From NCBI RefSeq assembly GCF_009766105.1, contig NZ_LMUH01000018.1:22403-86402 (forward strand): a DNA stretch of 64,000 bases. The letters are read 5' to 3'. The position numbers and the translations under genes are program-made. This stretch comes from Granulicella sp. S156. Its GTDB lineage: Bacteria > Acidobacteriota > Terriglobia > Terriglobales > Acidobacteriaceae. Of this stretch, positions 32,234-47,681 are shown piece by piece. How positions within the stretch are numbered: position 1 is the stretch's first letter; every line of letters begins with the position of its first letter. The notes beneath the pieces were generated by a model. The model was not told the origin of the DNA and did no database searches. It worked only from the letters and a program-made list of their open reading frames with translations.

Positions 32234-32242
32234 AGGATGTCC

Positions 32243-32503
32243 TTAGCGAAAGAAGATCAACCACAGCAGGCAGCTGAACAGGATGACCAGGGCGGGGTAG
32301 AAGAGAGCGACCGGCCCGATCTCCGACTCGAATTTGTAACGCAGCAATACCAGCCGCACGATGCACGCGAGAACGATGGCGATGGTGAGGCACACCATCC
32401 AGACGGGGAAGAAAGAGCCGATGATATCGACCGACGGCGCACGGCCGCAGCCGGTGCAAAGCAGACAGATCGTTGAAGCGAAGATCAGAGTTCTTCGGGT
32501 CAT
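32243..32503 (-). CDS. YtcA-family small lipoprotein
   Basis: 86 residues. A signal sequence ends in LLCTGC (lipobox with Cys19), followed by two membrane helices (FFPVWMVCLTIAIVLACIVRLVLL and a second ending LLWLIFF). Composition, size and position between the outer-membrane channel and the HlyD gene match E. coli YtcA, encoded beside mdtNOP. Its ATG overlaps the TolC-like gene stop codon (ATGA), which points to translational coupling. Role unknown; probably a small accessory subunit of the pump. Confidence 0.82.
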   Translation of the reverse strand: MTRRTLIFASTICLLCTGCGRAPSVDIIGSFFPVWMVCLTIAIVLACIVRLVLLRYKFESEIGPVALFYPALVILFSCLLWLIFFR

Positions 32504-34068
32504 CGTGGTTGGCCATCCTGAGGTTGCGTAGTTGATGCCGGGGTTGATGTTGTTGCTGTCTTCGTTGCGGGTGGCAGCGGCCGCAGCAGGTTGCCGGTGC
32601 TGAACTCCAGGTCGACGGCTTCGAGAAAGAGCTGTGAACGAGCCGAGACGCCGGAGGAACGAGCTTGCGCCAACTGTCTCTCAGCGGTCACGACGTCGAT
32701 AAGGTTCTTCACTCCATATTTGTAGGCTTCGAGCGAGGCCGAGTAGGAGGAGTTGGCGGAATCGAGGAGAGCCACGGCCGCCTGCTGTTTTCGAAGCGCA
32801 GACCGGAAGGCGATGTAGGCTGTCCAGACTTCGCGTGTGGTCTGGTCGCGCTTCTCGCGCAACTCGTCCTGAGCCTCTCGCTTCCTCGATCGGGCAGCGG
32901 CGAGTTCGTTCTTGCGTGCGCCTCCGTCAAACAGCCGCCACTCCACGGCCAGCTCTGCCGACCAGGTTGGCTCGCTTGCATTGCCCAGCTGGCCATAGTC
33001 AGCAGTAGGCCAGACGGAGGTCTGCGCTGCGTTGGCCGAGAGGGAGATCTTCGGAAGGTACTCGGACTTCGCGGCGCGAATAGCATCGTCGGCCGCTCGT
33101 ATCTCCGCAACCTGCGCCATCAAGTCGGGACGGTCCGCCATGGCGCGTTTGATCAACTCGTCGATCGGTAGGGTCAGCGCATCGGGAAGAGGAGCATTCT
33201 TCTGTCCGTCGATGGTGATATCCGGTGAAGGCTCGACGCCGAGCTCTTCCGTCAGGGTTACGCGCGCAATCTTCTCGTCGCCGTCGGCTGATTCCAGGTC
33301 GAAGACCGCTTGCGAGGTCTCTGCGCGTGCATTCAAGACGTCAGGCAGTGTGGAGCGCCCATTGAGGAGCTGTGCTTCGGCGGCATCCTGGGTGGTTTGA
33401 GCGGTCTTCAGCGTCTGTCGTGCAGCCTCAAGCCGTTCCTGTTGCGTGAGAAGTTTGTAGTACGCGCTGGCGACGGCGAAGGCAACCTGCTGGTTCGCCT
33501 GGATGAAGTTGGCGCCGGCGGCCAGCTTCTCAGCCGTCGCGGCATCTACCTTCGCCTCGCGTTTGCCGAAGTCGAAGATGAGGTAGTCCAGCGTAACCTC
33601 GGGCACGACTGCCGGGACTTCCACCATGTTGTAGCCACGGGGAGAGAGAGGCTTTGGAAAAGGATTGACGATGCGCTCGTCTGCAAAAGCTGCGACTCCT
33701 GCAAGGACAGGGAAGTAGGCGCTCTTCGCGACCCCGAGCTCTTCGGCCTTCTGCTTGGCATGTTCCCAGACGATGCGGGTATGGGGATTGTTGTGCTCGG
33801 CGATGTCGATCAACTCGGCCAGGGTGTAGGAGTGGGCCGGATCAAGCTGGGCGACTCCATCCAGAGGAATCGCATGCGCGGCGCAGTCAGCTGCGGCGCT
33901 CGGCGTTGAGGCGGTGCCAGCGCATTGAGCCTGTGTGCTCGTAGGGCTGAGGCAGGTGAAGGCGAGAAGAACCCCCCATAACGGCAGGCACGGTCTGCGC
34001 TGTTCTAGACGCGCAGTCAAGTGCGAGTAACGCGTGATTAAGCTTCGCGCGATGGCTCGTATCAACAC
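32500..34068 (-). CDS. TolC-family outer-membrane efflux channel (MdtP-like)
   Basis: About 522 residues. Signal peptide CLPLWGVLLAFTCLSPTSTQAQ, then two repeats of the TolC alpha-helical barrel domain: the first starting YTLAELIDIAEHNNPHTRIVWE and the second DELIKRAMADRPDLMAQVAEIRAADDAIRAAKSEYLPKISL. A Thr/Pro-rich tail ends the protein. I place the start at GTG 34066-34068 because GGGGGAA lies 7 bases upstream; ATG 34087-34089 and a longer frame to 34128 are possible but lack a ribosome site. First gene of the operon tolC-ytcA-hlyD-FUSC. Confidence 0.87.
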   Translation of the reverse strand: MLIRAIARSLITRYSHLTARLEQRRPCLPLWGVLLAFTCLSPTSTQAQCAGTASTPSAAADCAAHAIPLDGVAQLDPAHSYTLAELIDIAEHNNPHTRIVWEHAKQKAEELGVAKSAYFPVLAGVAAFADERIVNPFPKPLSPRGYNMVEVPAVVPEVTLDYLIFDFGKREAKVDAATAEKLAAGANFIQANQQVAFAVASAYYKLLTQQERLEAARQTLKTAQTTQDAAEAQLLNGRSTLPDVLNARAETSQAVFDLESADGDEKIARVTLTEELGVEPSPDITIDGQKNAPLPDALTLPIDELIKRAMADRPDLMAQVAEIRAADDAIRAAKSEYLPKISLSANAAQTSVWPTADYGQLGNASEPTWSAELAVEWRLFDGGARKNELAAARSRKREAQDELREKRDQTTREVWTAYIAFRSALRKQQAAVALLDSANSSYSASLEAYKYGVKNLIDVVTAERQLAQARSSGVSARSQLFLEAVDLEFSTGNLLRPLPPATKTATTSTPASTTQPQDGQPR

Positions 34069-34240
34069 AAAGCATTCCCCCAGATCCATGTAGAGTGCAT
34101 CATAGCCAACACTCACCTCAAAACCCAATTGCGACTACATAACGAAGAAGAATTTTTCTTAATGCGGGCCGCGAAGAGCCCTCTCGGGGGGCGTATCTGG
34201 GGCTGGTTGACAGGCAGTGGCAACCATGAAATCTTGTGTG

Positions 34241-34252
34241 TGAAACGATTCA
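34241..34252. promoter_or_regulatory. LacI-type operator candidate, site 1
   Basis: TGAAACGATTCA is a 12-base near-palindrome with a central CG, the hallmark of LacI-family sites, found in the 500-base gap between the efflux operon and the nucleoside gene cluster. It resembles site 2 at 43346. The rest of the gap (34069-34569) shows AT-rich promoter-like sequence and no gene. Confidence 0.5.
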
Positions 34253-34569
34253 TAAAAACTTAATATCGGATACCCTTTGGAGCCATTTCTTCTACCGTAA
34301 ATAATGAGCGACAGATTCAATCCGTCTTTAAGTATTTGTTTTTAGGAACGTTTCTCTATGTATTGGGCGTGGATCGATCTTGCGGATTCCGGTTTTTTGA
34401 ACGATGGGTCAAGATGTATAACTAGTCCACACCTATAGGGAATAGTTCTAAATGTAGGCACTGCTCGCTGATTTCACGTTTGAGCAGCACAATTGCATAA
34501 CTGGAACCAGTCTCGGATTTCGATGATGCTGGTATAAGCTGACGCGTTTCTAGAGGAAGTTGTCTCTTT

Positions 34570-35697
34570 ATGATCAATCCCTTTCGCGGTACTTTGCTTC
34601 GAGTTTGTACCTTCTCTTTGTGCGGCCTAATCCCGGCCTTTATGGCTTGTTCCCCTTTGAGCGCGCAGGAGCAGAGGTATGTCGTCGTGGATCAGGATGC
34701 CTCAGGCCCGGCGGGTTCCGACATGATGGCGCTGCTGGTCTTCCTGCAATCTCCCCAGGTCAAGCTGCTGGGTATCACCGTCGTTACAGGAGATGCGTGG
34801 CGCGAGGAAGAGATGGCTCATACCCTTCGTCTTCTGGAGTTGGTCGGGCGCACCGACGTCAAGGTTTACCCGGGTGCCGAGTATCCCCTGGTCCGCACCC
34901 AGCAGGAGACCCACATTAGCGAGCAACTCTATGGGCGGTCTGCGTGGCTGGGCGCGTGGAGTCCTCATGGTCATGCTGCCAACGTCATTCCTCCCATGCC
35001 CGAAGGTGCGCCGTCCACCAAGCCCGCGGAAGAAGATGCTGCGCATTTCATGATCCGTATGGTGCATCAGTATCCGCATCAAGTGACGATCTATGCTGCT
35101 GGCCCGCTCACCAATATCGCCCTGGCTATCCGGATAGATCCACAGTTTGCCGGGCTGGCTAAAGAGTTAGTCGTGATGGGTGGCAGCCTTAATCCGCAGA
35201 CGTCAGACCAGGAGTTCACTGACGATCCACGCCACGAGTTCAACTTCTGGTTCGATCCTGAAGCTGCAAGCATCACGCTGCGTGCTCTCTGGGCAAAGAT
35301 CATCGACACTACGGTCGACGTCTCCCTCCAGAGCAAACCCACGGAGCAGATGATTGCCTCCTGGGAGCATCTGGACTCTCCTGCTGCGCGGTACATGGTC
35401 AAGTACACGACGCACCCTGTCGGATCCTACATGTGGGATGAGCTGGCTGCCGCCGCGTGGCTCGATCCCTCGGTCATTACCAGCGAACGTTATGTCTATA
35501 TGGATGTTGACACCAGTCGCGGTCCAACCTATGGGAACACGTTGATCTGGAACGATAAGGATAAGCCGGTCATCACGCTTCAGAAGGTCCACGCACAAAT
35601 GAACGTCGACTTTCCAAAGCTGGAAAAGAAGTTCTACGAGTTGCTGTCAAAGCCCGCGCCGGGTGAAACTAACCCTCTTATGCCTGCAAAGCCATAA
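34570..35697 (+). CDS. Divergent exported nucleoside hydrolase-like protein
   Basis: 375 residues: signal sequence (TFSLCGLIPAFMACSPLSAQ, possibly a lipoprotein), then the IU-nucleoside hydrolase fold. Fold markers are VTVVTGDAW, AAGPLTNIALAIRIDP, ELVVMGGSLNPQ and EFNFWFDPEAA. The calcium-binding loop is altered: DQDASGPAGSD (41-51) replaces DTDPGxDD, with an insertion and Ser at the usual first Asp of the DD pair. The C-terminal HDP motif is WDE. It may hydrolyse a modified nucleoside or have lost activity. It starts a co-directional group with the next gene 5 to 62 bases away. Confidence 0.82.
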   Translation: MINPFRGTLLRVCTFSLCGLIPAFMACSPLSAQEQRYVVVDQDASGPAGSDMMALLVFLQSPQVKLLGITVVTGDAWREEEMAHTLRLLELVGRTDVKVYPGAEYPLVRTQQETHISEQLYGRSAWLGAWSPHGHAANVIPPMPEGAPSTKPAEEDAAHFMIRMVHQYPHQVTIYAAGPLTNIALAIRIDPQFAGLAKELVVMGGSLNPQTSDQEFTDDPRHEFNFWFDPEAASITLRALWAKIIDTTVDVSLQSKPTEQMIASWEHLDSPAARYMVKYTTHPVGSYMWDELAAAAWLDPSVITSERYVYMDVDTSRGPTYGNTLIWNDKDKPVITLQKVHAQMNVDFPKLEKKFYELLSKPAPGETNPLMPAKP

Positions 35698-35759
35698 CAG
35701 GCATGCGCTGTCTGATGGAAAGAGTAAAGCCTGCAGAAATTCAAGAGGCTCGTTCCGCC

Positions 35760-36866
35760 ATGCATTCTATGAACCGTCGCCGCTTCGTATCTCAGGGGTG
35801 CCTCACACTCGCCGCAACCAGCATTGCTTCATCAACAACATTCGGACAGATCGAGAGAGCTTCAATGATTGCCAGCCGCAGCGCAGGGCCAAGACGGATC
35901 ATCATTGATACCGATCCTGGGGTCGATGATGCCTTCGCTATCTTCCTCGCGATAACTTCCCCAGAACTGAAGATTGAGGCCATTACTGCAGTTGCGGGGA
36001 ACGTGCCTCTTTCGTTCACTCTTCCCAACGCGCTTCGGCTGGTAGAGATTGCCGGCCGCACGGATATTCCGGTGGCCGCCGGTGCTACTGCTCCATTGGT
36101 GCGTCGCCTCATCTCTGCAACGGATGTTCATGGGCAGAATGGGTTTGCAGGGGCAGAGTTCCCCGCGCCCTCTGTCAAGCCGGTTTCCGAACCTGCTGTC
36201 GACGTCCTCCGGGCGATCATTGGCAGGAATCCCGGAGAGATAACACTTGTCTGCCTGGGCCCACTCACAAATATTGCGCAGGCGCTGCAGGCGGATCCTG
36301 CGTTAGCTGGAAAGATAGCGCAGATCACGATGATGGGCGGCTCTCTCTCTGGTGGGAACATTAGTCCAGCTGCGGAGTTCAACTTTTACGTCGATCCGGA
36401 AGCCGCGGATATCGTCTTCCGGTCTGGTGTTCCCATCACCATGGTGGGATTGGATGTGACTGAGAAGGTGACATTCACTGAAAAGCATCTGGCGATGCTG
36501 GAGGCAGCTAACGGGCCTGTGAGCATGGCCGCCGCAAAGATCGCCCGCCAGGAGTTCGGGTTGGCTAGAAAGCGCGGCGCGAGTGGCTTTCATATGCATG
36601 ATCCCTTAGCGATGTCTTCGCTCCTCGACAGCGAGATTCTCCGCCTCGAAGATTACCTCGTCAAGATAGAAACCGCAGGTCTCTACTCCGCCGGAGCGAG
36701 CTATGGCTATAAACATAATCCGGTTCGAGGCTCCGCTCCGATGAAGGATGCCGCAGACGTCAGCAGGGTATCCGATGCAGCGCTTCGGCCGAATGCGAAA
36801 GTAGCGGTCGGCGTGAACTCCGACCGTTTTTTCGAATTGCTGATCCCTCGACTTACCAAAGCATGA
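35760..36866 (+). CDS. Tat-exported inosine-uridine-type nucleoside hydrolase
   Basis: 368 residues from ATG 35760 (AGAGG upstream; the frame is open from 35703). Tat signal MNRRRFVSQGCLTLAATS. The catalytic calcium loop DTDPGVDDA (Asp50, 52, 56, 57) is canonical, as are TAVAGNVPL, LGPLTNIAQAL, TMMGGSLSGGNISPAAEFNFYVDPEAA and the late MHDPLA motif with the catalytic His. It should split purine or pyrimidine ribosides into base and ribose in the periplasm. Paralogous to the preceding gene. The last 11 bases start the direct repeat that recurs at 40754. Confidence 0.9.
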   Translation: MHSMNRRRFVSQGCLTLAATSIASSTTFGQIERASMIASRSAGPRRIIIDTDPGVDDAFAIFLAITSPELKIEAITAVAGNVPLSFTLPNALRLVEIAGRTDIPVAAGATAPLVRRLISATDVHGQNGFAGAEFPAPSVKPVSEPAVDVLRAIIGRNPGEITLVCLGPLTNIAQALQADPALAGKIAQITMMGGSLSGGNISPAAEFNFYVDPEAADIVFRSGVPITMVGLDVTEKVTFTEKHLAMLEAANGPVSMAAAKIARQEFGLARKRGASGFHMHDPLAMSSLLDSEILRLEDYLVKIETAGLYSAGASYGYKHNPVRGSAPMKDAADVSRVSDAALRPNAKVAVGVNSDRFFELLIPRLTKA

Positions 36867-37002
36867 AGCGGGGATGCTTATCTCGAACCCCCGTGTGCCT
36901 GGCAAAGAGGTAATGTGTTCAGACAAGATCAAGAACCGTCTCGGTGTATGTTTGGCTGCTTCTGTTGATGTGTCCTATTGCTTTCGGCCAGACAAAACAG
37001 CG
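36856..37002 (+). repeat. 147-bp direct repeat, left copy
   Basis: Starts in the last codons of the nucleoside hydrolase and runs to 37002. It aligns with 40754-40900 at about 86% by eye (18 mismatches and two compensating 1-base gaps). The pair flanks the TonB-dependent receptor gene. Confidence 0.88.
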
Positions 37003-37012
37003 TATCGCCTCT
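36915..37012 (+). pseudogene. Fossil 5' end of the amidohydrolase gene
   Basis: GTG at 36915 with the same AAAGAGGTAAT leader as the intact amidohydrolase start at 40812. A missing base after CAGAC shifts the frame, giving a stop within 20 codons. The signal-peptide region (CTTCTGTTGATGTGTCCT) is still recognisable, then similarity ends. A short further match (ATCGCCTCT) suggests an internal deletion. The 37013-37174 stretch holds only the promoter and leader of the receptor. Confidence 0.75.
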
Positions 37013-37174
37013 ATCCGGCCTATAGGGTCAATCAGGCTGTGCAGCGTTTCCTTGGCTTTTTACATGGCCCTGGATTAAATCTAACTATCGACACCAACCT
37101 CTTCGATAGAGGTTATAATCCTGTTTCATAATCGGAAAAACTGTAGACTAACGCCAAATTATTTTGGAGGGTCG

Positions 37175-40100
37175 GTGAAATCAGAAAGACTTGTCTTCTT
37201 TTTTATTCTCCTATTCCTTTCTTTGAGCTTCTTCTTTGATTGCGCGATGCAGGCTCAGAGCGCTGCCGCAAAAATTCTGGGGCAGGTAACAGATCCGCAG
37301 AATGCTTTGCTCCCTGGTGCGACCGTCACGGTGACCAACGTCGATACGGGAGTTCAGCAGACCGTCAAAACCGGTGAAAAGGGTAGTTATTTAGTGCCCG
37401 CGCTGCCGATCGGCAGCTATAGACTGACCGCCACGCATGATGGCTTCGACTCCATAACTACTCCGGTATACAAGCTGGAAATCAACCAGGCAGAGCGAGT
37501 CGATTTTAAGCTGCCGGTCGCCGGCGTCAGCACCACAGTGAGCGTAGGCGTTCAAGCTTCACAGGTTGAAACGGAAAGTTCGACCATCGGCTATTCCATT
37601 ACCGACCGCTCCATCGTCGATCTGCCGTTGAACGGACGCAACCCTCTTGATCTAGCGGCTTTGATGCCTGGAGTTCTTGATACCAACCCTGACAACGGTG
37701 GTGCGGGAAGCTATTCTATCGCCGGTGGGCGGTCCGATTCAGTTACCTATCTGCTTGACGGCGGCGGCAATAATGATCTGCTTAACAATGGTGTGGTGTT
37801 TACTCCGAACCCTGATTCGGTCGAGGAGTTCCGCGTCATTGAGAGCGACTATGCCGCTGAATATGGCCGCAACGGCGGTGGCATCATCAGCATGGTGACC
37901 AAATCCGGCACCGCACAATATCACGGCAGCCTGTACGACTATGCCCGCAACGGCGCCTTCGATGCCAACAGCTACTTCAACAAACGATCAGATGTTCCGC
38001 GCGATACGCTACGGCGCCATCAGTTTGGCGGCACGCTGGGTGGAGAATTGTTTATCCCTCATATTCTCGACCGGAAGGGCAAATTCTTCTTCTTCTTCTC
38101 CTATGAGGGGCAACGCCAGCAGGAAACGGAAGATAACGGTGCCAATGGTATCGGCGGCGTGGCCGTTCCCACGACGGCAGAGATGAATGGAGACTTCAGT
38201 GCACTACCGCAGCCAAATCCGGTTGCGGCATTCCTGCAGGCGAATCCGTACTATCAGTCCAATCCCACCCTCGCTGCTCAAGGGATCATCGATCCCACGA
38301 CCATTGATCCGGTCATTCAGAACTATACAAAGGCCGGGCTGATGCCCTCGAGCCCCTCCGGGTTCCTGTTGGCCACAGGCGTGGCTAAAACCAATTTCGA
38401 TCAGTACAGCGGCAAGTTCGACTTTCATCTGACTTCATCTGATCTGTTGAGCGTATCGCTCGCGCTGCAGCCGAACACGGCAACGGACCCGTTCGGCGGA
38501 GCCACCATTCCTTTTCCCATCAGCAATGACAACACTATTTCCTTTGTCGGGGTGACCTGGACAAAGACCATCACGCCGAACCTGCTCAGCGAGCTGCGCT
38601 TTACCGCGCAGCGTACTAACGCTACGTCTTACAAGCCAATCACCCCGCTGGGCAGCCCCTCTTCGTTCGGCGTTAATGTCACGCCGGACCAGTCAACTGG
38701 CCCTAGCATCCTCGCCTACGGTCCGGACTATGTCGGCTTCAACTACGCCGGACCGCAGACCATCGTAGACAACACGTTTGTCTATGACGAGGCGCTGAGC
38801 TGGACCAAGGGGCCCCACACCCTGAAGTTCGGCGGGGGATATCAACCCTATCAGGACAATACGATCTACTCTTTCCTGGTAGATGGCTACTTTACCTGGT
38901 TCGGCAATGGCCAGGCGGGCAGCAGCGTCGGCTCAGGAAATCCCTATGCCGATCTCGTGATGGGGCTTCCGGATGAATACAACCAGTCACCACGCGCTCC
39001 CTCCAACATCCGCACAGCGTCGTCCTATATCTTCGGCCAGGACGAGTATCGTATAACCAGCCGTCTGACCCTTAACTTTGGGCTGCGCTACGAGTACTTC
39101 AGCCCCAAGAAGGACACCGAGGGCCGTAGCTACAGCCTGGTGGCCGGTAATCAGTCGACGCGATTCGTGAATTCACCCGAAGGTCTGATTTACCCTGACG
39201 ATAAGGGCGCACCCGAAGGCGTGAACTTCCCCGACAGGACGAACTTCGCACCCCGTTTCGGTTTTGCCTTCGATCCCTGGGGCAACGGAAAAACCAGCAT
39301 TCGCGGTGGATTCGGCATCTTCTTCGACATCCTCAAGGGAGAAGACAATCTCCAGTTCAACGGCCAGGCGCCCTTCTTTTCATCGACATCGCTGTTTTCT
39401 TCCAGCATTGCGGGTTCCACTGGTATCTTCAGTGGCCTGACCGCTTCGCCAGCCATACTAAGCGATCCATACCTGTCTATTACCGGGAGTGATCTGAACA
39501 ATCCCTTTCCCTCGAAGCCTCCGACAAAAAATGTCTCTTTTGACAACTATCTCCCTTTCGGAGCCAACAGTCAGTATTTTGTCGATCCGCATCTGCGCAC
39601 ACCCTATACCGAGCAGTTCAACCTCAGCTTGCAGCACGAATGGGCTCAAGGACTCACCAGCGAGGTTTCGTATGTGGGAAATGTCTCCCATAAGCTGACT
39701 GGGTTGAAGGACATCAATCCCTATGTGTTGGGCGATCCTAATCTCAACCAGATATTTTCTGTAGCCAATGGGTATAGCTCGACCAACGGGTACGGGTACG
39801 GTTCTTCCGACAATCCGCCACCCTACGCATGGCTGGACACATTCACGAACGCCACCACCGGCAACTACAACAGCCTGCAGGCTAAGTTGCAGAAGAACAT
39901 TACGTCGTCGCCATATGTTGGGAACACGTTTTTCACCATCTCATACACCTTTTCCAAAAACATGGATAATGTGTCCGGCTTCCGGCAGCGCAACTCCTAC
40001 GTGCCGTATTACAACCCCGGACGCTTTTACTCAGTTTCGGACGCCAACGTTCCACAGCGGCTGGTACTCTCCGGCGGATGGGACCTGCCTTTCGATCAAC

Positions 40101-40666
40101 TGTGGAAGTCCGGTCCGCGCGTGGTCACCAAAGGCTGGAGCTTCTATCCTATTGCCAGTTTCCGGTCTGGTTTCCCGCTGGACGTCCTTGCAGGACTTGC
40201 GACATCTCTCGGAACTCCGGGACCGAGTGGAGCCGGCGATCAGGAGTTGGTGCGCGCCAATCTGGTGGGCAGCCGCGTCGTTACACAGTCTCCAGGAAAA
40301 CAGGTCGGTCCCGATGGAGTGGGAGGAATCTATTTCCAGCAGGGTAACTTCGATGCTTCCCAGCTATCTCAGATGGACGAGTATGGTGTTGCGCCTGCTA
40401 TCGGAACGCTCACCTACGGTACCCTGCCACGCAACTCCTTCAGCGGGCCTGGACGTCGGAACCTTGACCTGACCATCGCTAAAAAGTTCTTCCTCTCGCG
40501 CGAGCGGAGCAGCTTTGAGCTCCGTGCCGATTTCTTCAATGCTCCGAATAATGTGCAGTATCAGAACCCAGATACAAATATCGACGATCAAGGCTCGACT
40601 TTTGGCGAGGTGTTGGCAACGTATCCTGCGCGCATTATCCAGTTCGCCGGGAGAATTAATTTTTAG
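37175..40666 (+). CDS. TonB-dependent receptor, Oar-like with carboxypeptidase-regulatory domain
   Basis: 1163 residues. GTG start with GGAGG 6 bases upstream. Signal peptide (FFILLFLSLSFFFDCAMQAQ), a CarboxypepD-reg domain (about 30-115: ILGQVTDPQNALLPGATVTVTNVDTG), a plug domain (about 130-240: LPLNGRNPLDLAALMPGV, SVTYLLDGGGNNDLLNNG, EYGRNGGGIISMVTKSG), then a large 22-strand barrel ending RIIQFAGRINF with the terminal Phe of outer-membrane proteins. No SusD partner. In this context it probably imports nucleosides or oligonucleotide fragments. It is flanked by the 147-bp direct repeats. Confidence 0.92.
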   Translation: MKSERLVFFFILLFLSLSFFFDCAMQAQSAAAKILGQVTDPQNALLPGATVTVTNVDTGVQQTVKTGEKGSYLVPALPIGSYRLTATHDGFDSITTPVYKLEINQAERVDFKLPVAGVSTTVSVGVQASQVETESSTIGYSITDRSIVDLPLNGRNPLDLAALMPGVLDTNPDNGGAGSYSIAGGRSDSVTYLLDGGGNNDLLNNGVVFTPNPDSVEEFRVIESDYAAEYGRNGGGIISMVTKSGTAQYHGSLYDYARNGAFDANSYFNKRSDVPRDTLRRHQFGGTLGGELFIPHILDRKGKFFFFFSYEGQRQQETEDNGANGIGGVAVPTTAEMNGDFSALPQPNPVAAFLQANPYYQSNPTLAAQGIIDPTTIDPVIQNYTKAGLMPSSPSGFLLATGVAKTNFDQYSGKFDFHLTSSDLLSVSLALQPNTATDPFGGATIPFPISNDNTISFVGVTWTKTITPNLLSELRFTAQRTNATSYKPITPLGSPSSFGVNVTPDQSTGPSILAYGPDYVGFNYAGPQTIVDNTFVYDEALSWTKGPHTLKFGGGYQPYQDNTIYSFLVDGYFTWFGNGQAGSSVGSGNPYADLVMGLPDEYNQSPRAPSNIRTASSYIFGQDEYRITSRLTLNFGLRYEYFSPKKDTEGRSYSLVAGNQSTRFVNSPEGLIYPDDKGAPEGVNFPDRTNFAPRFGFAFDPWGNGKTSIRGGFGIFFDILKGEDNLQFNGQAPFFSSTSLFSSSIAGSTGIFSGLTASPAILSDPYLSITGSDLNNPFPSKPPTKNVSFDNYLPFGANSQYFVDPHLRTPYTEQFNLSLQHEWAQGLTSEVSYVGNVSHKLTGLKDINPYVLGDPNLNQIFSVANGYSSTNGYGYGSSDNPPPYAWLDTFTNATTGNYNSLQAKLQKNITSSPYVGNTFFTISYTFSKNMDNVSGFRQRNSYVPYYNPGRFYSVSDANVPQRLVLSGGWDLPFDQLWKSGPRVVTKGWSFYPIASFRSGFPLDVLAGLATSLGTPGPSGAGDQELVRANLVGSRVVTQSPGKQVGPDGVGGIYFQQGNFDASQLSQMDEYGVAPAIGTLTYGTLPRNSFSGPGRRNLDLTIAKKFFLSRERSSFELRADFFNAPNNVQYQNPDTNIDDQGSTFGEVLATYPARIIQFAGRINF

Positions 40667-40753
40667 CAGTTTCCTGCTGCTATCAGAACATTGCAGCCCG
40701 ATTGGCGACCCCGTCACATGGACGGATCGCATTAGTGTGGAATCTCTAACCAG

Positions 40754-40900
40754 CCAAAGCATGAAGCAGAGATCCTTATCTCGAACTCTGTGCGCCTAAT
40801 AAAGAGGTAATGTGTTCAGACGAAGATCAAGAACTACCCGGGTGCATGTTTGGCTACTTCTGTTGATGTGTCCTGTTGCTTTCGGCCAGACAAAGCAGCG
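40754..40900 (+). repeat. 147-bp direct repeat, right copy
   Basis: Covers a remnant of a nucleoside-hydrolase gene end (CCAAAGCATGA, although no such gene precedes it here), the leader, and the first 30 codons of the amidohydrolase gene. Partner of 36856-37002. Confidence 0.88.
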
Positions 40901-42224
40901 CGTTGATCTTATTGTGTCGGATGCAACCGTCGTAACGATGGACAAAGAGCATCGCCTCTTAAATGACGGAGCCGTTGCCGTCCAGGGGGATGCGATTGTT
41001 GCGGTGGATACAACCGCGTTCATCCGGGAGCATTTTGTAGCTGGAAAGATTGTCGATGCGAGGGGTGGTCTGCTCCTCCCCGGTTTGATCAATGCTCATA
41101 CCCACATGGGCATGAGCCTGCTGCGTGGGCTGGCAGAGGACCAGTCGCTGTCTGATTGGCTGAACAAGTACATCTTTCCTGCCGAGAGTCGCAATGTCAC
41201 TCCGGAGTTTGTGAAGTGGTCCACGCAGTTGAGCCTGCTCGAGATGTTTCGCGGAGGCACAACTACGGTCGCGGATATGTATTACTTCGAAGACACTGTC
41301 GCTCAGACTGCTAAAGAGGCTGGGATGCGCGGGGTGCTGGGAGAAACAATTATTGCCTTTCCTGCGCCAGACAATAAGACGCTGGCAGCAGCCCTTCAAT
41401 ATACGGAGCAGTTTCTTAATCACTGGAAGAACGATCCGCTCATCACTCCTGCTGTTGCACCCCACTCGATCTATACGTGTCCCGAGCAGATATTGATGGA
41501 TTCAGCAGCGCTTGCCCGTCGCTATCATGCCCCCATTCTGATCCACATGGCAGAGGCGCCATTTGAGATCGAATTGTCTCGTCATCAGCATGGGCAGTCT
41601 ACCGTTCAGTATCTGGATCGAATTGGATTGCTGGGGCCTGACGTGGTGGGAGCGCATTGCATCTGGGTGGATCAGGCGGATATTCGTACGCTTGCAAGCC
41701 ACGGGGTTGGCTGCTCCTACAACCCCTCCAGCAATATGAAGACAGCGGCGGGACTCATGCCGGCCGTAGATATGCTGGCTGCGAATGTGGCCGTGGGTAT
41801 CGGCACGGATGGTGCGGCGAGCAACAACAATCAAGACATGTTCGAAGAGATGGATCTTGCTGCAAAGCTACAGAAGTTTGGGCATATGGATCCTACGGTG
41901 TTGCCCGCCGAACAAGTGGTGGCTATGGCGACGATCACAGGAGCACGAGCGCTTCACCTCGACTCTGAGATTGGCTCACTTGAGGTGGGGAAGAAGGCGG
42001 ACATGATCGTGATCGATACGTCTGCCCCGCACGCCACTCCTATGTACGATGTCTACGCGGAGATCGTGTATGCGCTAAAGGCCGAAGACGTGCGTACGAC
42101 CATTATTGGAGGCAGGCTCGTCATGGAAGATCGCACAATGCTCACACTGGATGAGAAGACGATTCTCCGAAAGGCTGCTGAATATAAAGAGCAAATCCAG
42201 GCTTCGATCAAGCGGAAGAACTAG
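40812..42224 (+). CDS. Exported amidohydrolase, adenosine/MTA/SAH-deaminase-like
   Basis: 470 residues, GTG start with AGAGGT upstream. A signal peptide (VWLLLLMCPVAFGQ) is unusual for this family. Metal ligands are His96 and His98 (HTHMG), His245 (LIHMAE, with Glu248), and Asp333 (GTDGAASNN); His282 (GAHC) completes the Atz/Trz/MtaD pattern. The family deaminates adenosine, methylthioadenosine, S-adenosylhomocysteine or guanine. With two exported nucleoside hydrolases nearby, periplasmic deamination of a nucleoside or base is the likely role. The stop overlaps that of lacI in the palindrome AAGAACTAGTTCTT. Confidence 0.87.
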   Translation: MFRRRSRTTRVHVWLLLLMCPVAFGQTKQRVDLIVSDATVVTMDKEHRLLNDGAVAVQGDAIVAVDTTAFIREHFVAGKIVDARGGLLLPGLINAHTHMGMSLLRGLAEDQSLSDWLNKYIFPAESRNVTPEFVKWSTQLSLLEMFRGGTTTVADMYYFEDTVAQTAKEAGMRGVLGETIIAFPAPDNKTLAAALQYTEQFLNHWKNDPLITPAVAPHSIYTCPEQILMDSAALARRYHAPILIHMAEAPFEIELSRHQHGQSTVQYLDRIGLLGPDVVGAHCIWVDQADIRTLASHGVGCSYNPSSNMKTAAGLMPAVDMLAANVAVGIGTDGAASNNNQDMFEEMDLAAKLQKFGHMDPTVLPAEQVVAMATITGARALHLDSEIGSLEVGKKADMIVIDTSAPHATPMYDVYAEIVYALKAEDVRTTIIGGRLVMEDRTMLTLDEKTILRKAAEYKEQIQASIKRKN

Positions 42225-43267
42225 TTCTTTCCAGAAGGCTTATGCCTGGCTCGCTTAGCGGCATCCTGCATGGGCGGCGGAGCGACGGAAGCCCGCAGGC
42301 GAAGCGCCGTGGTAAGGACGCGTTCTTTGCGCGGTCCGGTATCGCCCTGAATGCGATCGACGATCATCTGTGCAGCGACTGCGCCTAGTTGATATACCGA
42401 TTGCTCCACCGAAGACAGAGACGGTGTGACGAACTCTGCGACATCGAGATTGTCGAAGCCGATAACGGAGATGTCCTCCGGGCAGCGTAGACCGAAGTGC
42501 CGGATAGCATTCAATGCGCCTAACGCCAGGAGGTCGTTTGCGGCAAAGACAGCTGTCGGCCGTGGGCTCATGTTGAGCAACAGTGTGGCTTTCTGGTATC
42601 CACTTTCCTTATCGAACTTTCCTTCCTGGATGTATTCGGGCTTAAGCGTGATCCTGGCCTCACGCAGAGCTTTGCGAAAGCCTGCAACGCGTTCGCCGGA
42701 GTTGGTCAGTTGCGAGGAGCCGCCGATCATACTCAGGAGCTTATGGCCGAGCCCGATCAGATGCTTCGTGGCCTGGTAGGCGCCATCTTCATGCATGCTG
42801 GTCACTGTATCGCCTGTCCAGTGATGGGGAAGCCGATCCACATACACTACAGCGGATCCAGCTTTGCGATACTCCTCCGCAAGAGCCAGGGAACCTTTTA
42901 TGTTGGAGGTCATGATGATCAGACCCGAAGGAAGATAGGTCTGCATCTCGCGGAGATAAGTCTGCTCTTTGGTGAAGTCATTATCGGAGTTGCAGATAAA
43001 CAACCTGTAGCCATTTTTGAAGGCCGTATCTTCCGCGCCTCTGACCACGGCAGCGAAGAAAGGATTCGAAACATCAGAGATGACCATCCCAATGATGTTC
43101 GTCTTATCGCGGCGCAGGCCTCGTGCCAGTTGATTCGGCTGATAGCCAAGCGCCTGCACTGCCTCCAGCACGCGCTTGCGAAGAGGCTCACGAACTGTGG
43201 GCAGGCCGCTTAAGACGTTAGAGACGGTTCCAAGGGAGACATCGGCAAGCCGCGCGATCTCCTTCAT
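42221..43267 (-). CDS. LacI-family transcriptional repressor of the nucleoside cluster
   Basis: 348 residues from ATG 43265-43267 (TTG 43276 would add three residues). The DNA-binding head MKEIARLADVSLGTVSNVLSG is canonical, with the hinge YQPNQLARGLRRDKTN, and a periplasmic-binding-protein-like sensor domain (62-330: TNIIGMVISDVSNPFFAAVVRG ... ISVIGFDNLDVAEFVTPSL). The ligand is probably ribose, a nucleoside or a base. It converges on the amidohydrolase and is divergent from the permease; a perfect palindrome TGAAAGCTTTCA sits between it and the permease. Confidence 0.9.
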   Translation of the reverse strand: MKEIARLADVSLGTVSNVLSGLPTVREPLRKRVLEAVQALGYQPNQLARGLRRDKTNIIGMVISDVSNPFFAAVVRGAEDTAFKNGYRLFICNSDNDFTKEQTYLREMQTYLPSGLIIMTSNIKGSLALAEEYRKAGSAVVYVDRLPHHWTGDTVTSMHEDGAYQATKHLIGLGHKLLSMIGGSSQLTNSGERVAGFRKALREARITLKPEYIQEGKFDKESGYQKATLLLNMSPRPTAVFAANDLLALGALNAIRHFGLRCPEDISVIGFDNLDVAEFVTPSLSSVEQSVYQLGAVAAQMIVDRIQGDTGPRKERVLTTALRLRASVAPPPMQDAAKRARHKPSGKN

Positions 43268-43345
43268 GTTCGCCAATGGGCTCTTACCACCTTATTTATA
43301 AGACTTGTTGACTGCGGCCAGTATAGAGCACTATGGTTTGGGACC

Positions 43346-43357
43346 TGAAAGCTTTCA
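43346..43357. promoter_or_regulatory. LacI-type operator candidate, site 2
   Basis: TGAAAGCTTTCA, a perfect 12-base palindrome, lies between the divergent lacI and permease genes. On the + strand TTGACT (43308-43313) and TATGGT (43332-43337) could be -35 and -10 elements, which would put the operator over the transcription start, a repressing position. Confidence 0.6.
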
Positions 43358-43399
43358 TCTTCTAGATCAAGTGAAGTATCGGTAAAGGCGGTGTGAACG

Positions 43400-44392
43400 A
43401 TGTATCAGCCTGAACAGTATTGGATCGTCCTGGCCTTCATGATTACCAGCATGCTTTGCTGGGGTTCGTGGGCCAACACCTTGAAGCTGTGTCCGCGCTT
43501 CCGGTTTCAGCTCTTCTATTGGGACTATTCGATTGGGCTCATCCTTGGGGCACTGCTCTGGGGCTTTACGCTGGGGAGTCATGGTGCAGTCGGTGCCTCG
43601 TTTCTCGACGATCTGCGGCATATCGAGCCAGCTCGGGCCTTGTGGGCCGCGGCAGGCGGGGCCGTCTTCAGTCTGGCGAATCTGCTGTTGGTCGCTGCTA
43701 TCGATATCGCAGGCATGGCCGTGGCATTTCCTATCGGTATAGGCCTGGCGCTCGTGATCGGCTCTATTGGCGGATATGTGATTGCTCCTGTCGGCAATCC
43801 TTATCTGGTTTTCGGCGGGGTCTTTCTTGTGATCGCGGCCATTGTGTGCGACGCCTTGGCCTACCGCGTACGCTCGAGCCCGGTGGCTTCCGTTCAGACA
43901 CGAGGGATCGTCGTCAGCCTGATCGCTGGTGCGCTGATGGGGACGTTCTATCCGCTGGTGACGCGATCGATGTCGGGTGCAGGGAGAGTCCCAGGTCCTT
44001 ATGCGATTACGTTTCTGTTTATCTGCGGGGCCGCGCTCTCCAACATTCCGGTGAACTTCGCCTTTATGAAGAAACCTGTCGATGGAACTGCGTCCCTCAA
44101 TATGTCCGAGTACTTTAGCGCCAAACCTCTGTGGCATCTTTGCGGAATTCTTGGCGGTATCATCTGGGCAACCGGTGGAGTTGCCAGCTTTGTCTCCTCG
44201 CGAGCCCACTCGGTTGGCTCGGCAGTTTCGTACTCTCTTGGACAGGGTGCCACCATGATCTCCGCTATCTGGGGTGTGTTTGTATGGAAGGAGTTCGCTG
44301 GAGCTCCCTCTAAGGCAAACCGATATCTTGTTGCCATGTTTCTCCTGTTTCTCTTAGGACTAGGGGCACTCGCCGCGAGTCCGATCTTCTAA
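43400..44392 (+). CDS. Sugar/ureide-type permease (GRP/RhaT-like, DMT superfamily)
   Basis: 330 residues with ten membrane helices. The start MYQPEQYWIVLAFMITSMLCWGSWANTLKL and the repeat of Gly-rich helices (AVFSLANLLLVAAIDIAGMAVAFPIGIGLALVIGS) match the glucose/ribose uptake (GRP) and plant ureide permease families. Both families move sugars or purine-derived ureides by proton symport. Next to a ribokinase, ribose is the best guess; a nucleobase is the alternative. Ribokinase follows 19 bases downstream. Confidence 0.83.
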   Translation: MYQPEQYWIVLAFMITSMLCWGSWANTLKLCPRFRFQLFYWDYSIGLILGALLWGFTLGSHGAVGASFLDDLRHIEPARALWAAAGGAVFSLANLLLVAAIDIAGMAVAFPIGIGLALVIGSIGGYVIAPVGNPYLVFGGVFLVIAAIVCDALAYRVRSSPVASVQTRGIVVSLIAGALMGTFYPLVTRSMSGAGRVPGPYAITFLFICGAALSNIPVNFAFMKKPVDGTASLNMSEYFSAKPLWHLCGILGGIIWATGGVASFVSSRAHSVGSAVSYSLGQGATMISAIWGVFVWKEFAGAPSKANRYLVAMFLLFLLGLGALAASPIF

Positions 44393-44411
44393 TACAACAC
44401 CTGGAGTATCT

Positions 44412-45362
44412 ATGTTCGCTGGTTCCAAGCCGGTAGTTGTTGTGGGCAGCATCAATACCGACCTCGTTGCACACGCTGACCGTCTGCCTCTCAAAGGAGA
44501 GACGATCACAGGCAATTCCTTTCACACGTTTCAAGGTGGAAAGGGAGCCAACCAGGCCGTAGCCGCCGCGAAACTCGGAGCCAAAGCGATCATGGTAGGC
44601 AAGGTTGGCTCCGACTCCTTTGGCGCAGAGTCGATTCGTCAGTTGACGGCCAGTGGAGTTGATTGCACACACATAGCGGTGGAACCATGTGATTCAGGTA
44701 TAGCTGTCATTACTGTTGGGACCGGCGGCCAGAATACGATCGTCGTCATTCCCGGGGCCAATGCGGCTGTAACACCCGCGTTTATCGAAGCCAATCGCGA
44801 TGTCATTAAGACTGCGGGAATGGTGCTTGCCCAACTTGAGATTCCGATGGAATCGGTACTTCGCCTGGGCCAGATATGCCATGAGGAAGATGTGCCACTC
44901 ATGCTCGATCCTGCACCCGCCAGAGAACTTCCTGGTGAGCTTCTTTCTCTGTGTTCCTGGATAACTCCCAACGAGACTGAGGCTCAGTTCTATGCCAGGG
45001 GTACTGCGGATGATGCGCATAGCAAGAGTTCCTCCGCAGTTGCTGCAGCCTTGCTGAAAACCGGTACCCACGGTGTTGTTCTGAAGCTGGGAGAACTCGG
45101 AGCTTATATCGAACAAACCGGAGGAAGCGCCTTCCAGATACCGTCTTTCAAGGTAGCTGCGGTTGATTCAACGGCTGCCGGAGACACCTTCAACGGGGCC
45201 TTCGCAGCGGCGCTCTCCGCAGGCCGCGATGTGGAGTGGAGTGGTCGCTTTGGCTCAGCGGCAGCGGCGATCTCAGTAACGCGCATGGGCGCGCAGGCCT
45301 CTATGCCGAAGGCAGATGAAGTGATGGCGCTGCTGTCAGGACAGTCTGACGTCAAGCTCTAG
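44412..45362 (+). CDS. rbsK: Ribokinase
   Basis: 316-residue PfkB-family sugar kinase. N-terminal VVGSINTDLVAHADRLPLKGET and the GGKGANQA motif (42-49) are classic RbsK. The C-terminal signature DSTAAGDTFNGAFAAAL (252-268) holds the catalytic base Asp258 and anion hole. It phosphorylates ribose with ATP to ribose 5-phosphate, linking nucleoside breakdown to the pentose phosphate pathway. CTGGAG precedes the ATG. The 3' end overlaps the convergent ctaG-like gene by 11 bases. Confidence 0.93.
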   Translation: MFAGSKPVVVVGSINTDLVAHADRLPLKGETITGNSFHTFQGGKGANQAVAAAKLGAKAIMVGKVGSDSFGAESIRQLTASGVDCTHIAVEPCDSGIAVITVGTGGQNTIVVIPGANAAVTPAFIEANRDVIKTAGMVLAQLEIPMESVLRLGQICHEEDVPLMLDPAPARELPGELLSLCSWITPNETEAQFYARGTADDAHSKSSSAVAAALLKTGTHGVVLKLGELGAYIEQTGGSAFQIPSFKVAAVDSTAAGDTFNGAFAAALSAGRDVEWSGRFGSAAAAISVTRMGAQASMPKADEVMALLSGQSDVKL

Positions 45363-46182
45363 ATCTTGTCTCCTGCTGCAAGAGTTTGACCGTAACGAAG
45401 ACTGCAGGGATTAAGAAGACCATTGAGCCGACGACCCACATGATGACCGCGCCGGTGACCTGGTCCGCCTGAGGCGATATATGAAATGGGTTTGGCTGTT
45501 CCACATAGTAGCTATAGATCGGCCGGTCGCAGAAGGCCAGGAACGCTGAGAGCGCCGTGTTCACGATGTCTGCAGCAACCAGGTAGGGCAGCATGTACCA
45601 CCCTGGGTAGCGTGCGTTCGTCGGCCAGGGGCGGATGAGCGGCCACCAGAAGAGGATCGACGAGCCCAGGAAGCAGATGTGTTCGAACTCGTGCCAATGC
45701 TCGTGTTCGAGCGCGAAGTCATAGGCGGAGGGTACGTGCCAGCCCAGGAAGATCAGGTTCATCGCGAGCCATGCCACCCATGGACGGATGAGAAAGTGCC
45801 CCAGCGCGCGCAGCAGCCTCGAGCGAAGCAGCGGCCTTAGCGGCGTTCGGACGAGTACGCGAGGCAGGCCGCGCAGCAAGGGGACGGCCGGATATCCAAG
45901 CAGGAGCAGTGGAGGAACGAAGGACATCAGGAGCAGATGCTCCACCATGTGGGCACTGAGCAGTGCATCGGCAAAGCCATCGAGCGGCGAACCGATCGCG
46001 AGCCAGATGATAGCGAGGCCCAGCAGGAACGCACCCAGCCGCCATGCCGGAAAGAGCGTTGGCCGTGTCTTCCGTATGGCAAACCAGCCGCGCGTGTAGA
46101 GGATGGCCGTAAGCAGGATTGCTGTTGTAAGGAAGATGGGCGGTGACCAATCGTCAAAGATAGCCCGGTATTCAGGAGGCAT
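45352..46182 (-). CDS. ctaG: Cytochrome c oxidase assembly factor, caa3-CtaG type
   Basis: 276 residues, seven membrane helices. Family markers: SPLDGFADALLSAHMVEHLLLMSFVPPLLLLGYP, NLIFLGWHVPSAYDFALEHEHWHEFEHICFLGSSILFWWPLI and QADQVTGAVIMWVVGS. The caa3_CtaG proteins assist maturation of caa3-type oxidase and may handle copper through these His residues. Last gene of the respiratory operon; its ATG overlaps the cytochrome b stop codon by one base. Confidence 0.88.
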   Translation of the reverse strand: MPPEYRAIFDDWSPPIFLTTAILLTAILYTRGWFAIRKTRPTLFPAWRLGAFLLGLAIIWLAIGSPLDGFADALLSAHMVEHLLLMSFVPPLLLLGYPAVPLLRGLPRVLVRTPLRPLLRSRLLRALGHFLIRPWVAWLAMNLIFLGWHVPSAYDFALEHEHWHEFEHICFLGSSILFWWPLIRPWPTNARYPGWYMLPYLVAADIVNTALSAFLAFCDRPIYSYYVEQPNPFHISPQADQVTGAVIMWVVGSMVFLIPAVFVTVKLLQQETRSRA

Positions 46183-47681
46183 TAATGCCCCTTGGCGGGC
46201 GCTGCCGGCGGCTCACTGGACGACGTCAGGCGCTGAGAGGCATCGACAGCAGGAGCCAGATCATTGCCGCGCAGTGTGGTCAGGAACCGGACGAGCGCAG
46301 TGGTCTCAGAAGGGCTGAGCGCGTTGCCATAGGCGGGCATATTCCCGCCGCCCTGCAGCACCTGGCGGATGATCTGGTCTTCGGTCATGTGCGAAGCAAC
46401 CGAGTCGAGTGCAGGACCGCGCATCCCTCCCGCTCCGCCGATGGAGTGGCAGTTACGGCACTGCTTGTTTTGCAGAACGAGCGCGCCCTCCCGCTCGAGC
46501 GGAGTGCGGTCTTTCAGATAAGCCGTAGGAACTGGATCACTGGTCCAGGCGTTCATCACGGGACTCCACGGCGTATACATACCGAGGCGGGTGAAGGCTC
46601 CGAGAATGACAGCGATCACGGCCACCATCAGCACCGCTACAGGGCGCCGCGACCAGTGCTTTTCGCCCTCGGCTGAGACGAGTGGCAGTAGAAGCATGGC
46701 ACCGATGCCCAGGACGGGAGCGATGAAGAGTACGGGCGTCTCAAGGCTCGGCGGCAGATAGGCCAGGACGGCATAGATCCAGAGGAAGGCAAAGTCAGGC
46801 TTCGGTGCTGTCTGAATGATCGTGGGATCCGGTTGACCGGTGGGGCCGAAGGGACCGAACCACAGCGCGCAAGCCATGACGGCGAGCATGATAGCCGCCG
46901 CGAAGAGTGAGTCCTTCCATGCGGCATCGGGAACGAAGGGTATGCCGCTTTTTTCGGTGAGCTGGTGATACTCGCGGACGTACGTCTTTTTGTTGACGAG
47001 GCGCCCCGGCATTGGCCAATCGTTGATGCCGAGACGCAACACCATCCAGATATGCAGGCCAACCATTGCCAGCAGGATGCCGGGAATGACGAAGACATGC
47101 AGCGTAAAGAATCGGGAGAGTGTAGGCCCGGCGATGATCGGGCCACCGAGCATCAGGTTGACGAGCGGGCCGCCGATCCAGGGAATACGGCTGACAATGG
47201 ACGCGCCGATGCCGAGCCCCCAGTACGCGTCCTGATCGAAGCGCAGCACCTGTCCGGTAAAGGCCATGCCGAGCGTGAGAAGGAGAAGGAAGACGCCGAT
47301 GATCCAGGTAAGTTCGCGGGGAAACTTGTACGCGCCGAAGAGAAAGACCTGTGCCATATGGATCAGCACAATGGCAACCATGAAGTCGGAACCCCAGCCG
47401 TGCATGGCACGCAGGAACCAGCCGAGTTTGACGTTATGGTCCAGGAACTCAAGGCTGTTCCACGCATGGCCTGCAGTAGGGGCGTAGACGAGTGCGAGCA
47501 GAATCCCCGTCATGACCTGGAGGACCAGAATGACCGTCGCGGCGCTGCCGAAGACGTACCACCAACTAGCTGTGTTGGAGGGAACCTCGTGCTCTGCCAT
47601 TTCGATGACTGGGCCGCCCAGCCCGAGCCGCTGCTCGAACCAGTTGTAGACCTCGATGCTGCGTCGCTTTAGCTCTGGCAT
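46182..47681 (-). CDS. Cytochrome b fused to a C-terminal cytochrome c (bc complex)
   Basis: 499 residues from ATG 47679-47681 (GAGGTG 6 bases upstream). Eight membrane helices. Haem ligands are His94 and His108 (13 residues between) and His195 and His210 (14 between), the b6-type spacing. The Qo-site PEWY motif is replaced by PDFA (295-298). A C-terminal haem c motif CRNCH (408-412) extends the protein, so one subunit carries both haem b and haem c. It oxidises quinol and passes electrons through the fused haem to the oxidase. It overlaps the Rieske gene end. Confidence 0.9.
   Translation of the reverse strand: MPELKRRSIEVYNWFEQRLGLGGPVIEMAEHEVPSNTASWWYVFGSAATVILVLQVMTGILLALVYAPTAGHAWNSLEFLDHNVKLGWFLRAMHGWGSDFMVAIVLIHMAQVFLFGAYKFPRELTWIIGVFLLLLTLGMAFTGQVLRFDQDAYWGLGIGASIVSRIPWIGGPLVNLMLGGPIIAGPTLSRFFTLHVFVIPGILLAMVGLHIWMVLRLGINDWPMPGRLVNKKTYVREYHQLTEKSGIPFVPDAAWKDSLFAAAIMLAVMACALWFGPFGPTGQPDPTIIQTAPKPDFAFLWIYAVLAYLPPSLETPVLFIAPVLGIGAMLLLPLVSAEGEKHWSRRPVAVLMVAVIAVILGAFTRLGMYTPWSPVMNAWTSDPVPTAYLKDRTPLEREGALVLQNKQCRNCHSIGGAGGMRGPALDSVASHMTEDQIIRQVLQGGGNMPAYGNALSPSETTALVRFLTTLRGNDLAPAVDASQRLTSSSEPPAAPAKGH

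Follow-up and report, generated by a model that had tools for sequence, protein, structure and literature searches.

Does a group of seven genes in Granulicella sp. S156 encode a periplasmic nucleoside-scavenging system built around a TonB-dependent receptor, as an original prediction made from the DNA letters had proposed? The genes occupy positions 34570..45362 of the 64,000-nucleotide stretch analyzed here (the window). All seven open reading frames (ORFs) were recovered together as that prediction had listed them, and their assignment to Pfam and NCBIfam families (Pfam matches being counted only above the cut-off) agrees with the proposed gene set:

34570..35697, + strand: NH1, putatively exported nucleoside hydrolase (PF01156), group II-like (Pfam; Trp preceding the last Ca-binding Asp)
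35703..36866, + strand: NH2, putatively exported nucleoside hydrolase, group I-like (Pfam; twin-arginine leader; His-Asp)
37175..40666, + strand: Oar/SusC-like TonB-dependent receptor without SusD (Pfam OMP_b-brl_4/CarboxypepD_reg/Plug)
40812..42224, + strand: AHYD, putatively exported COG0402-type amidohydrolase, predicted adenosine deaminase (Pfam Amidohydro_1)
42221..43276, - strand: LacI-family regulator (Pfam LacI, Peripla_BP_3)
43400..44392, + strand: permease, predicted ribose permease (Pfam Ureide_permease/Sugar_transport)
44412..45362, + strand: ribokinase (Pfam PfkB, NCBIfam TIGR02152)

From the order of the genes, NH1-NH2-receptor-AHYD would form one transcription unit and permease-ribokinase another, lacI being divergent from the latter. 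We consider it rather probable, judging from gene families and their context, that the locus specifies an inducible periplasmic nucleoside-scavenging system: nucleosides are probably degraded outside the inner membrane and the released ribose imported. The cluster looks, moreover, like a combination of two older modules (NH1-NH2-AHYD, and LacI with the divergent permease-ribokinase pair) and a later-inserted receptor.

The proposed pathway would comprise the following steps: (i) nucleosides or small nucleic-acid fragments would enter the periplasm, possibly via the receptor (the weakest step), (ii) AHYD would deaminate adenosine-type to inosine-type nucleosides, (iii) NH1, a Trp-type enzyme with a probable preference for purine nucleosides, and NH2, a His-type enzyme with a probable preference for inosine and uridine, would split nucleosides, with inosine, guanosine and uridine as substrates, into base and ribose, (iv) the permease would import ribose, which the ribokinase would convert to ribose 5-phosphate, and (v) LacI would repress permease-ribokinase, and perhaps the hydrolase unit too, with relief by ribose or a derivative.

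The regulator-permease-ribokinase module and its operator-like palindrome

The permease scored above the Pfam cut-offs for Ureide_permease (40.8 vs 27) and Sugar_transport (31.7 vs 26.3) and below the NCBIfam RhaT/GlcU cut-off (20.9 vs 319.6); no solved homologue was found at E <= 1. The ribokinase passed NCBIfam TIGR02152 (323 vs 299.65 bits), as did all seven ribokinases scanned from related loci, and missed PRK11142 (284.2 vs 341). The regulator gave its best scores with the PurR and RbsR models, all under the 20 NCBIfam cut-offs listed.

Five other genomes (L032-L036) and a further locus of the window genome (L031) share the arrangement LacI-receptor-permease-ribokinase. At these recurring modules, an exported-looking (by eye) protein of 729-779 aa (724-779 aa when the L039 equivalent is included) follows the ribokinase and stands in place of the hydrolases. 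In L039 the gene content is identical, but this protein is encoded between the receptor and lacI; L040 contains lacI-permease-ribokinase with no receptor next to it, and no lacI was found in L041. The protein is encoded at L031 11113-13449, L033 5997-8267 and L036 9572-11770, with equivalents in L032, L034, L035 and L039; in the one scanned (L036), an FGE-sulfatase domain lies at the C-terminus, and the large N-terminal part gave no Pfam match. A ribose-5-phosphate isomerase B-like protein (by eye) is encoded at L031 18614-19123, approximately 7.5 kb downstream of the second ribokinase.

An operator-like sequence before the permease gene of the window became apparent when the paralogous loci were compared; a palindrome screen requiring arms of 8 bp and at least 7 pairs had missed it. 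The sites concerned are:

43346..43357, no strand: operator-like perfect palindrome TGAAAGCTTTCA
34241..34252, no strand: operator-like site TGAAACGATTCA, one mismatch from TGAAASSTTTCA (mismatch search of the 64 kb)
43308..43337, + strand: weak match to a sigma-70-type promoter preceding the permease, separated by 8 bp from the operator-like palindrome (such matches are no commoner than in shuffled sequences)

The 6.4-Mb genome contains two copies of the exact form, one at 43346-43357 and one in L031, each beside this type of lacI. Apart from the window's own copies, TGAAASSTTTCA was found in L031-L036 and L039 and nowhere else among the 162 loci. A looser form of the palindrome has four genome copies, the extra two being in L171 and L172; that of L172 (position 4213, TGAAACGTTTCA, operator-like) is located, by eye, ahead of a further receptor gene of the window genome and next to a LysR-like gene. 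Within the 64 kb there are two sites with at most one mismatch, against 0.29 expected, and two or more appeared in 3 of 100 shuffles. Control of permease-ribokinase by LacI, acting at the perfect palindrome, is supported by this shared sequence.

Leaders and nucleoside context of the enzymes

Both hydrolases scored above the PF01156 cut-off (206.9 and 303.3 bits vs 34.2) and both contain equivalents of D10, D15, T126 and D242, which we take to be the Ca-binding set of this family. NH2, whose likely start is an internal ATG near 35760-35769, has group I residues, with His ahead of the last Ca-binding Asp (MHDPLA) and a second His in an HG motif. In NH1, Trp stands immediately ahead of this Asp, and it is kept in 18 of 21 NH1-labelled rows, the remaining three having Pro. 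Such a Trp, together with a second Trp in the beta3-alpha3 loop, marks the purine-preferring group II according to PMC8910321, and Pro-type enzymes are called unstudied in PMC10526354. An AlphaFold2 model of NH1 built from 3 sequences (mean pLDDT 47.9) was too poor for a fold search.

Hydrolases of other types were also seen. Loci L063-L067 contain one to three hydrolase genes and a nearby receptor gene, some with LysR-like, ABC-transporter-like and amidohydrolase genes (by eye), and three of their hydrolases have Pro ahead of the last Asp. Exported-looking hydrolases with Tyr in this position occur in L046/L070, L050/L071 and L048/L072, near DERA, aldehyde-dehydrogenase and ribokinase-family genes; deoxynucleoside catabolism is possible for these Tyr-type loci with DERA.

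The relatives of AHYD were collected by an alignment-based scan of public genomes, of which the best 80 of at least 549 confirmed loci, i.e. the closest relatives, were analyzed; 78 are labelled as Acidobacteriota and the other two as Nevskia soli and Verrucomicrobia. Genes found by tblastn within 8 kb of AHYD were CDA (50 loci), PNP (43), NupC (40) and PyNP (35), with at least one of the four at 54 of the 80 loci and some gene of the nucleoside/base list at 60, counts which are not independent trials, the loci being mutually related and many contigs short. Hydrolase matches lay within 8 kb at only 5 of the 80. The gene order PyNP-NupC-PNP-CDA-AHYD-deoB is seen in L075 (NupC slightly under the cut-off, 433.2 vs 442); in L108, permease-ribokinase is divergent from PyNP-NupC-PNP-CDA-AHYD; in L097, an exported-looking PF01156 hydrolase gene lies immediately upstream of AHYD; and L104 and L111 combine NH1, CDA, PyNP, NupC, AHYD and a xanthine-dehydrogenase-type gene. 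Genes of the queuosine-salvage family (PF10343) were also found within nucleoside loci (L072 8728-9825, L104 17927-18940).

The best solved chain for AHYD is 4f0r, a 5'-methylthioadenosine/S-adenosylhomocysteine (MTA/SAH) deaminase (312.3 bits). Residues H96, H98, H245, E248, H282 and D333 are invariant in all five aligned sequences; their metal-binding and catalytic roles are presumed from TM0936.

Leaders were judged by a simple leader rule or by eye. By eye, that of NH2 is of the twin-arginine type (MNRRRFVSQG...) and those of NH1 and AHYD are of the Sec type. The rule was passed by 74 of 79 AHYD relatives (L087, whose locus begins inside the gene, was left out); among the five failures, L113, L127 and L134 look leader-like by eye and L091 and L112 do not. 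At the same loci, the control enzymes gave 0/44 (PNP), 0/50 (CDA) and 0/32 (PyNP), 0/126 together. Leaders were seen by eye in 21/21 NH1-type and 10/12 NH2-type rows (duplicate loci included), the exceptions being L073 and L107. Two classical adenosine deaminases (PF00962) of the window genome have no leader by eye; a third match is partial and outside the comparison. The idea that these families normally lack export signals is thus contradicted by the relatives seen, in which a leader is the rule: predicted export is normal for the hydrolase and AHYD families, at least in this phylum.

The receptor as a probable later arrival

The receptor gene is flanked by two copies of a 147-bp direct repeat, identified by alignment:

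36856..37002, + strand: upstream copy, NH2 end and broken AHYD start
40754..40900, + strand: downstream copy, continuing into AHYD

The copies are 86.5% identical over 148 alignment columns. Each opens with the last NH2 codons and continues into the first AHYD codons, the upstream copy having a one-base gap in its AHYD part. Because the receptor gene is bordered by repeats of an NH2/AHYD junction, it probably came later; the simplest reading is that its insertion split an older NH2-AHYD junction, and the divergence of the repeats would place this event long ago. On account of this repeat, the receptor was rejected as founder of the locus.

The closest homologue found (43-45% identical) is encoded in genome G032 and pairs with the window receptor in the tree. 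Of 18 probe genes, nothing except the receptor itself was detected over 20 kb around it. In the midpoint-rooted tree (25 rows, two pairs of which are the same gene), receptors standing beside such genes fall into several separate groups. The description of the system as built around its receptor is not supported, since the gene probably arrived later, no nucleoside genes were detected near its G032 homologue, and the receptors of comparable loci are unrelated.

The same evidence favours the strongest alternative, that the enzymes and permease-ribokinase act as proposed and the receptor is a later passenger with other cargo (e.g. an oligosaccharide or peptide). Besides the repeat, the isolated homologue and the polyphyly of receptors at comparable loci, it is favoured by the number of receptor-like first-look candidates in a genome (from 0 to 198, mostly tens), which makes chance neighbours easy. 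Against it stand the orientation of the gene, which is the same as that of the NH1-NH2-AHYD unit containing it, the receptor genes directly adjoining the same regulator type in six loci besides the window, and the receptors inside other hydrolase loci (L068, L069, L071). We regard a passenger receptor as a serious possibility, yet the less probable one, and nucleosides or precursors of these could well be the cargo of the window receptor.

Conservation across genomes

Among 61 genomes (the window genome and 60 relatives), the permease type was found in 35 (E <= 0.001), NH1 in 31 (E <= 1e-20) and AHYD in 6 (E <= 1e-60). Of the five relatives matching AHYD, loci L072, L075, L076 and L079 were inspected and G056 (35% identity) was not. 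On this genome-wide distribution of matches, a single conserved seven-gene operon was rejected. The absence of conserved synteny, which the original prediction had named as a refuting observation, thus holds for the seven-gene whole, which was not found in the 60 relatives, and not for its modules, which do recur.

Of the 23 genomes with both a permease and a hydrolase gene, 6 (the window genome among them) have the two within 15 kb of each other; a uniform model predicts 0.25, and the distance limit was picked after the loci had been seen. The predicted path from nucleoside to ribose 5-phosphate is favoured by this proximity, by the gene families and their module context and by the seven ribokinases; the part that did not hold is a single receptor-built unit. 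Among the loci combining hydrolase and permease, L068 contains an adenine-deaminase-like gene (369 vs a cut-off of 472.5) and L069 a dihydropyrimidinase above the cut-off and an NCS1-type permease. DERA above the cut-off accompanies molybdenum-hydroxylase genes in L046; DERA, aldehyde-dehydrogenase and xanthine-dehydrogenase-type genes are present in L046/L070 and L072, and DERA and aldehyde dehydrogenase in L050/L071. In two genomes the permease-type match is split into two adjoining pieces, as if frameshifted or interrupted (G041:C68:7068-8141, G043:C28:166525-167598).

Evidence against the proposed pathway and alternative substrates

In addition to the failure to find the complete set in the relatives, several observations weigh against an inducible nucleoside-scavenging system. 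With regard to regulation, L040 is a LacI locus without the palindrome, and the site at 34241-34252 is imperfect and lies 112 bp from the divergent tolC-like ORF, compared with 317 bp from NH1. For the receptor, phmmer detected no solved homologue, and its relatives give no substrate. In NH1, the second stacking Trp of group II could not be placed, and Ser occupies the position of group I Asp14, presumably a ribose contact; the Asp15 position is Asn in 6 of 18 Trp-type rows (the window NH1 retains Asp). AHYD matched 57 NCBIfam models, and for each of the 25 listed its score is below the cut-off, including those for MTA/SAH deaminase (300.9 vs 779) and 5'-deoxyadenosine deaminase (381 vs 522), and adenosine, 5'-deoxyadenosine, MTA and SAH are therefore all candidate substrates. 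No gene of the nucleoside list accompanies AHYD at 20 of the 80 loci, several of which are on short contigs; the close relatives L083 and L084 are among these 20, and their neighbours look unrelated by eye. Finally, the window genome also holds adjacent NupC-type and PNP genes for intact nucleosides, with a PyNP-like frame nearby (by eye), so that the cluster would add a second, extracytoplasmic route.

The replacements at Asp14 and Asp15 in Trp-type rows make an altered substrate possible. NH1 could then be an altered ribosidase in a cluster aimed at different ribosides, such as modified nucleosides, fragments of cofactors or ribofuranosides that are not nucleosides. This would fit the Ser or Thr at the Asp14 position in 18/18 Trp-type NH1 rows, the sister modules, which have an exported-looking protein (with the FGE-sulfatase domain in the one scanned) and not hydrolases, and the queuosine-salvage-family genes of L072 and L104; nucleoside-hydrolase folds inactive on nucleosides are also on record in PMC8910321. 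The standard group I residues of NH2 and the association of AHYD with ordinary nucleoside genes at 54 of its 80 loci argue the other way, and we find this explanation unlikely. Less likely still is the disposal of by-products (5'-deoxyadenosine, MTA, SAH) by AHYD instead of the feeding of ribose catabolism, an idea prompted by the 5'-deoxyadenosine and MTA/SAH deaminases among its NCBIfam and PDB neighbours and opposed by its leader and its setting with NupC, PNP, CDA and PyNP.

Neighbouring genes and other signals

On the left, the cluster is bordered by the divergent outer-membrane efflux (tolC-like) ORF, and on the right by genes for CtaG-, cytochrome b- and Rieske-like proteins (by eye); both flanks look unrelated to it. 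A Pfam scan covering the seven cluster proteins and their tolC-like neighbour found no SusD. The promoter and terminator scan of the region gave 5 and 10 sites, respectively, compared with 7.2 and 9.6 in shuffled sequences, and Rfam gave nothing above the gathering score over 32000-47000.

Comparison with known systems

In its logic, the proposed system would come closest to the rus locus of Bacteroides and to a ribokinase/uridine-transporter/hydrolase operon of Corynebacterium. The rus locus unites an outer-membrane receptor, a nucleoside hydrolase, a ribose transporter and a kinase in one inducible locus. The window cluster likewise has a receptor, hydrolase, ribose-type transporter and kinase in one locus; in contrast to rus, it contains no SusD and thus no SusC/SusD pair, has LacI in place of a Bacteroides-type regulator, and adds a predicted exported deaminase and two hydrolases of different type. 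The PyNP-NupC-PNP-CDA-AHYD operons of Acidobacteriota, whose family functions are NupC-type uptake of intact nucleosides and phosphorolysis, share with it the same leader-bearing AHYD family.

In C. glutamicum, nucleoside hydrolysis is intracellular. Its operon, described in PMC3146418, encodes a ribokinase, a uridine transporter and a uridine-preferring hydrolase, with a local repressor and RbsR sharing control; ribokinase, permease and nucleoside hydrolase under a repressor are thus common to both, whereas neither receptor nor deaminase figures in that description. The scores of NH1 and NH2 (101.7 and 208.7 vs 450, UriH) and of the window LacI (145.3 vs 550, UriR) are below the respective cut-offs. 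Lactobacillus sakei, according to the same paper (PMC3146418), has rbsUDK/rbsR, iunH1 upregulated on ribose, and iunH genes at other loci. A ribose transporter (RbsU), a ribokinase and a LacI-family repressor are shared, but that account names no export, receptor or deaminase, and the window cluster has no rbsD. Plant extracellular nucleoside hydrolases also act outside the cell; they are eukaryotic and have no linked receptor or ribose unit.

The open-access literature searched showed no system of this kind, with exported nucleoside hydrolase and TonB-dependent receptor, in Acidobacteria, and neither this gene combination nor the widespread exported deaminase was found there. Each part is known; the apparent novelty lies in the combination and in the widespread, leader-bearing deaminase.

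Biological meaning

Carbon and nitrogen could plausibly be drawn from nucleosides and RNA fragments, and this bacterial group has many receptors of unassigned cargo, for one of which the cluster offers a testable candidate. It also predicts that deamination and hydrolysis of nucleosides take place outside the cytoplasm, and its two-copy operator-like sequence is directly testable. More tentatively, Acidobacteriota might possess a widespread, partly extracytoplasmic salvage in which AHYD, as an exported adenosine deaminase, feeds either NupC and phosphorylases or, as in the window, exported Trp-type and His-type hydrolases and a ribose permease-ribokinase unit, receptors having been captured several times independently; if true, this would mean SusD-less TonB-dependent nucleoside capture. 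The cluster also illustrates how a nutrient locus may be assembled from modules.

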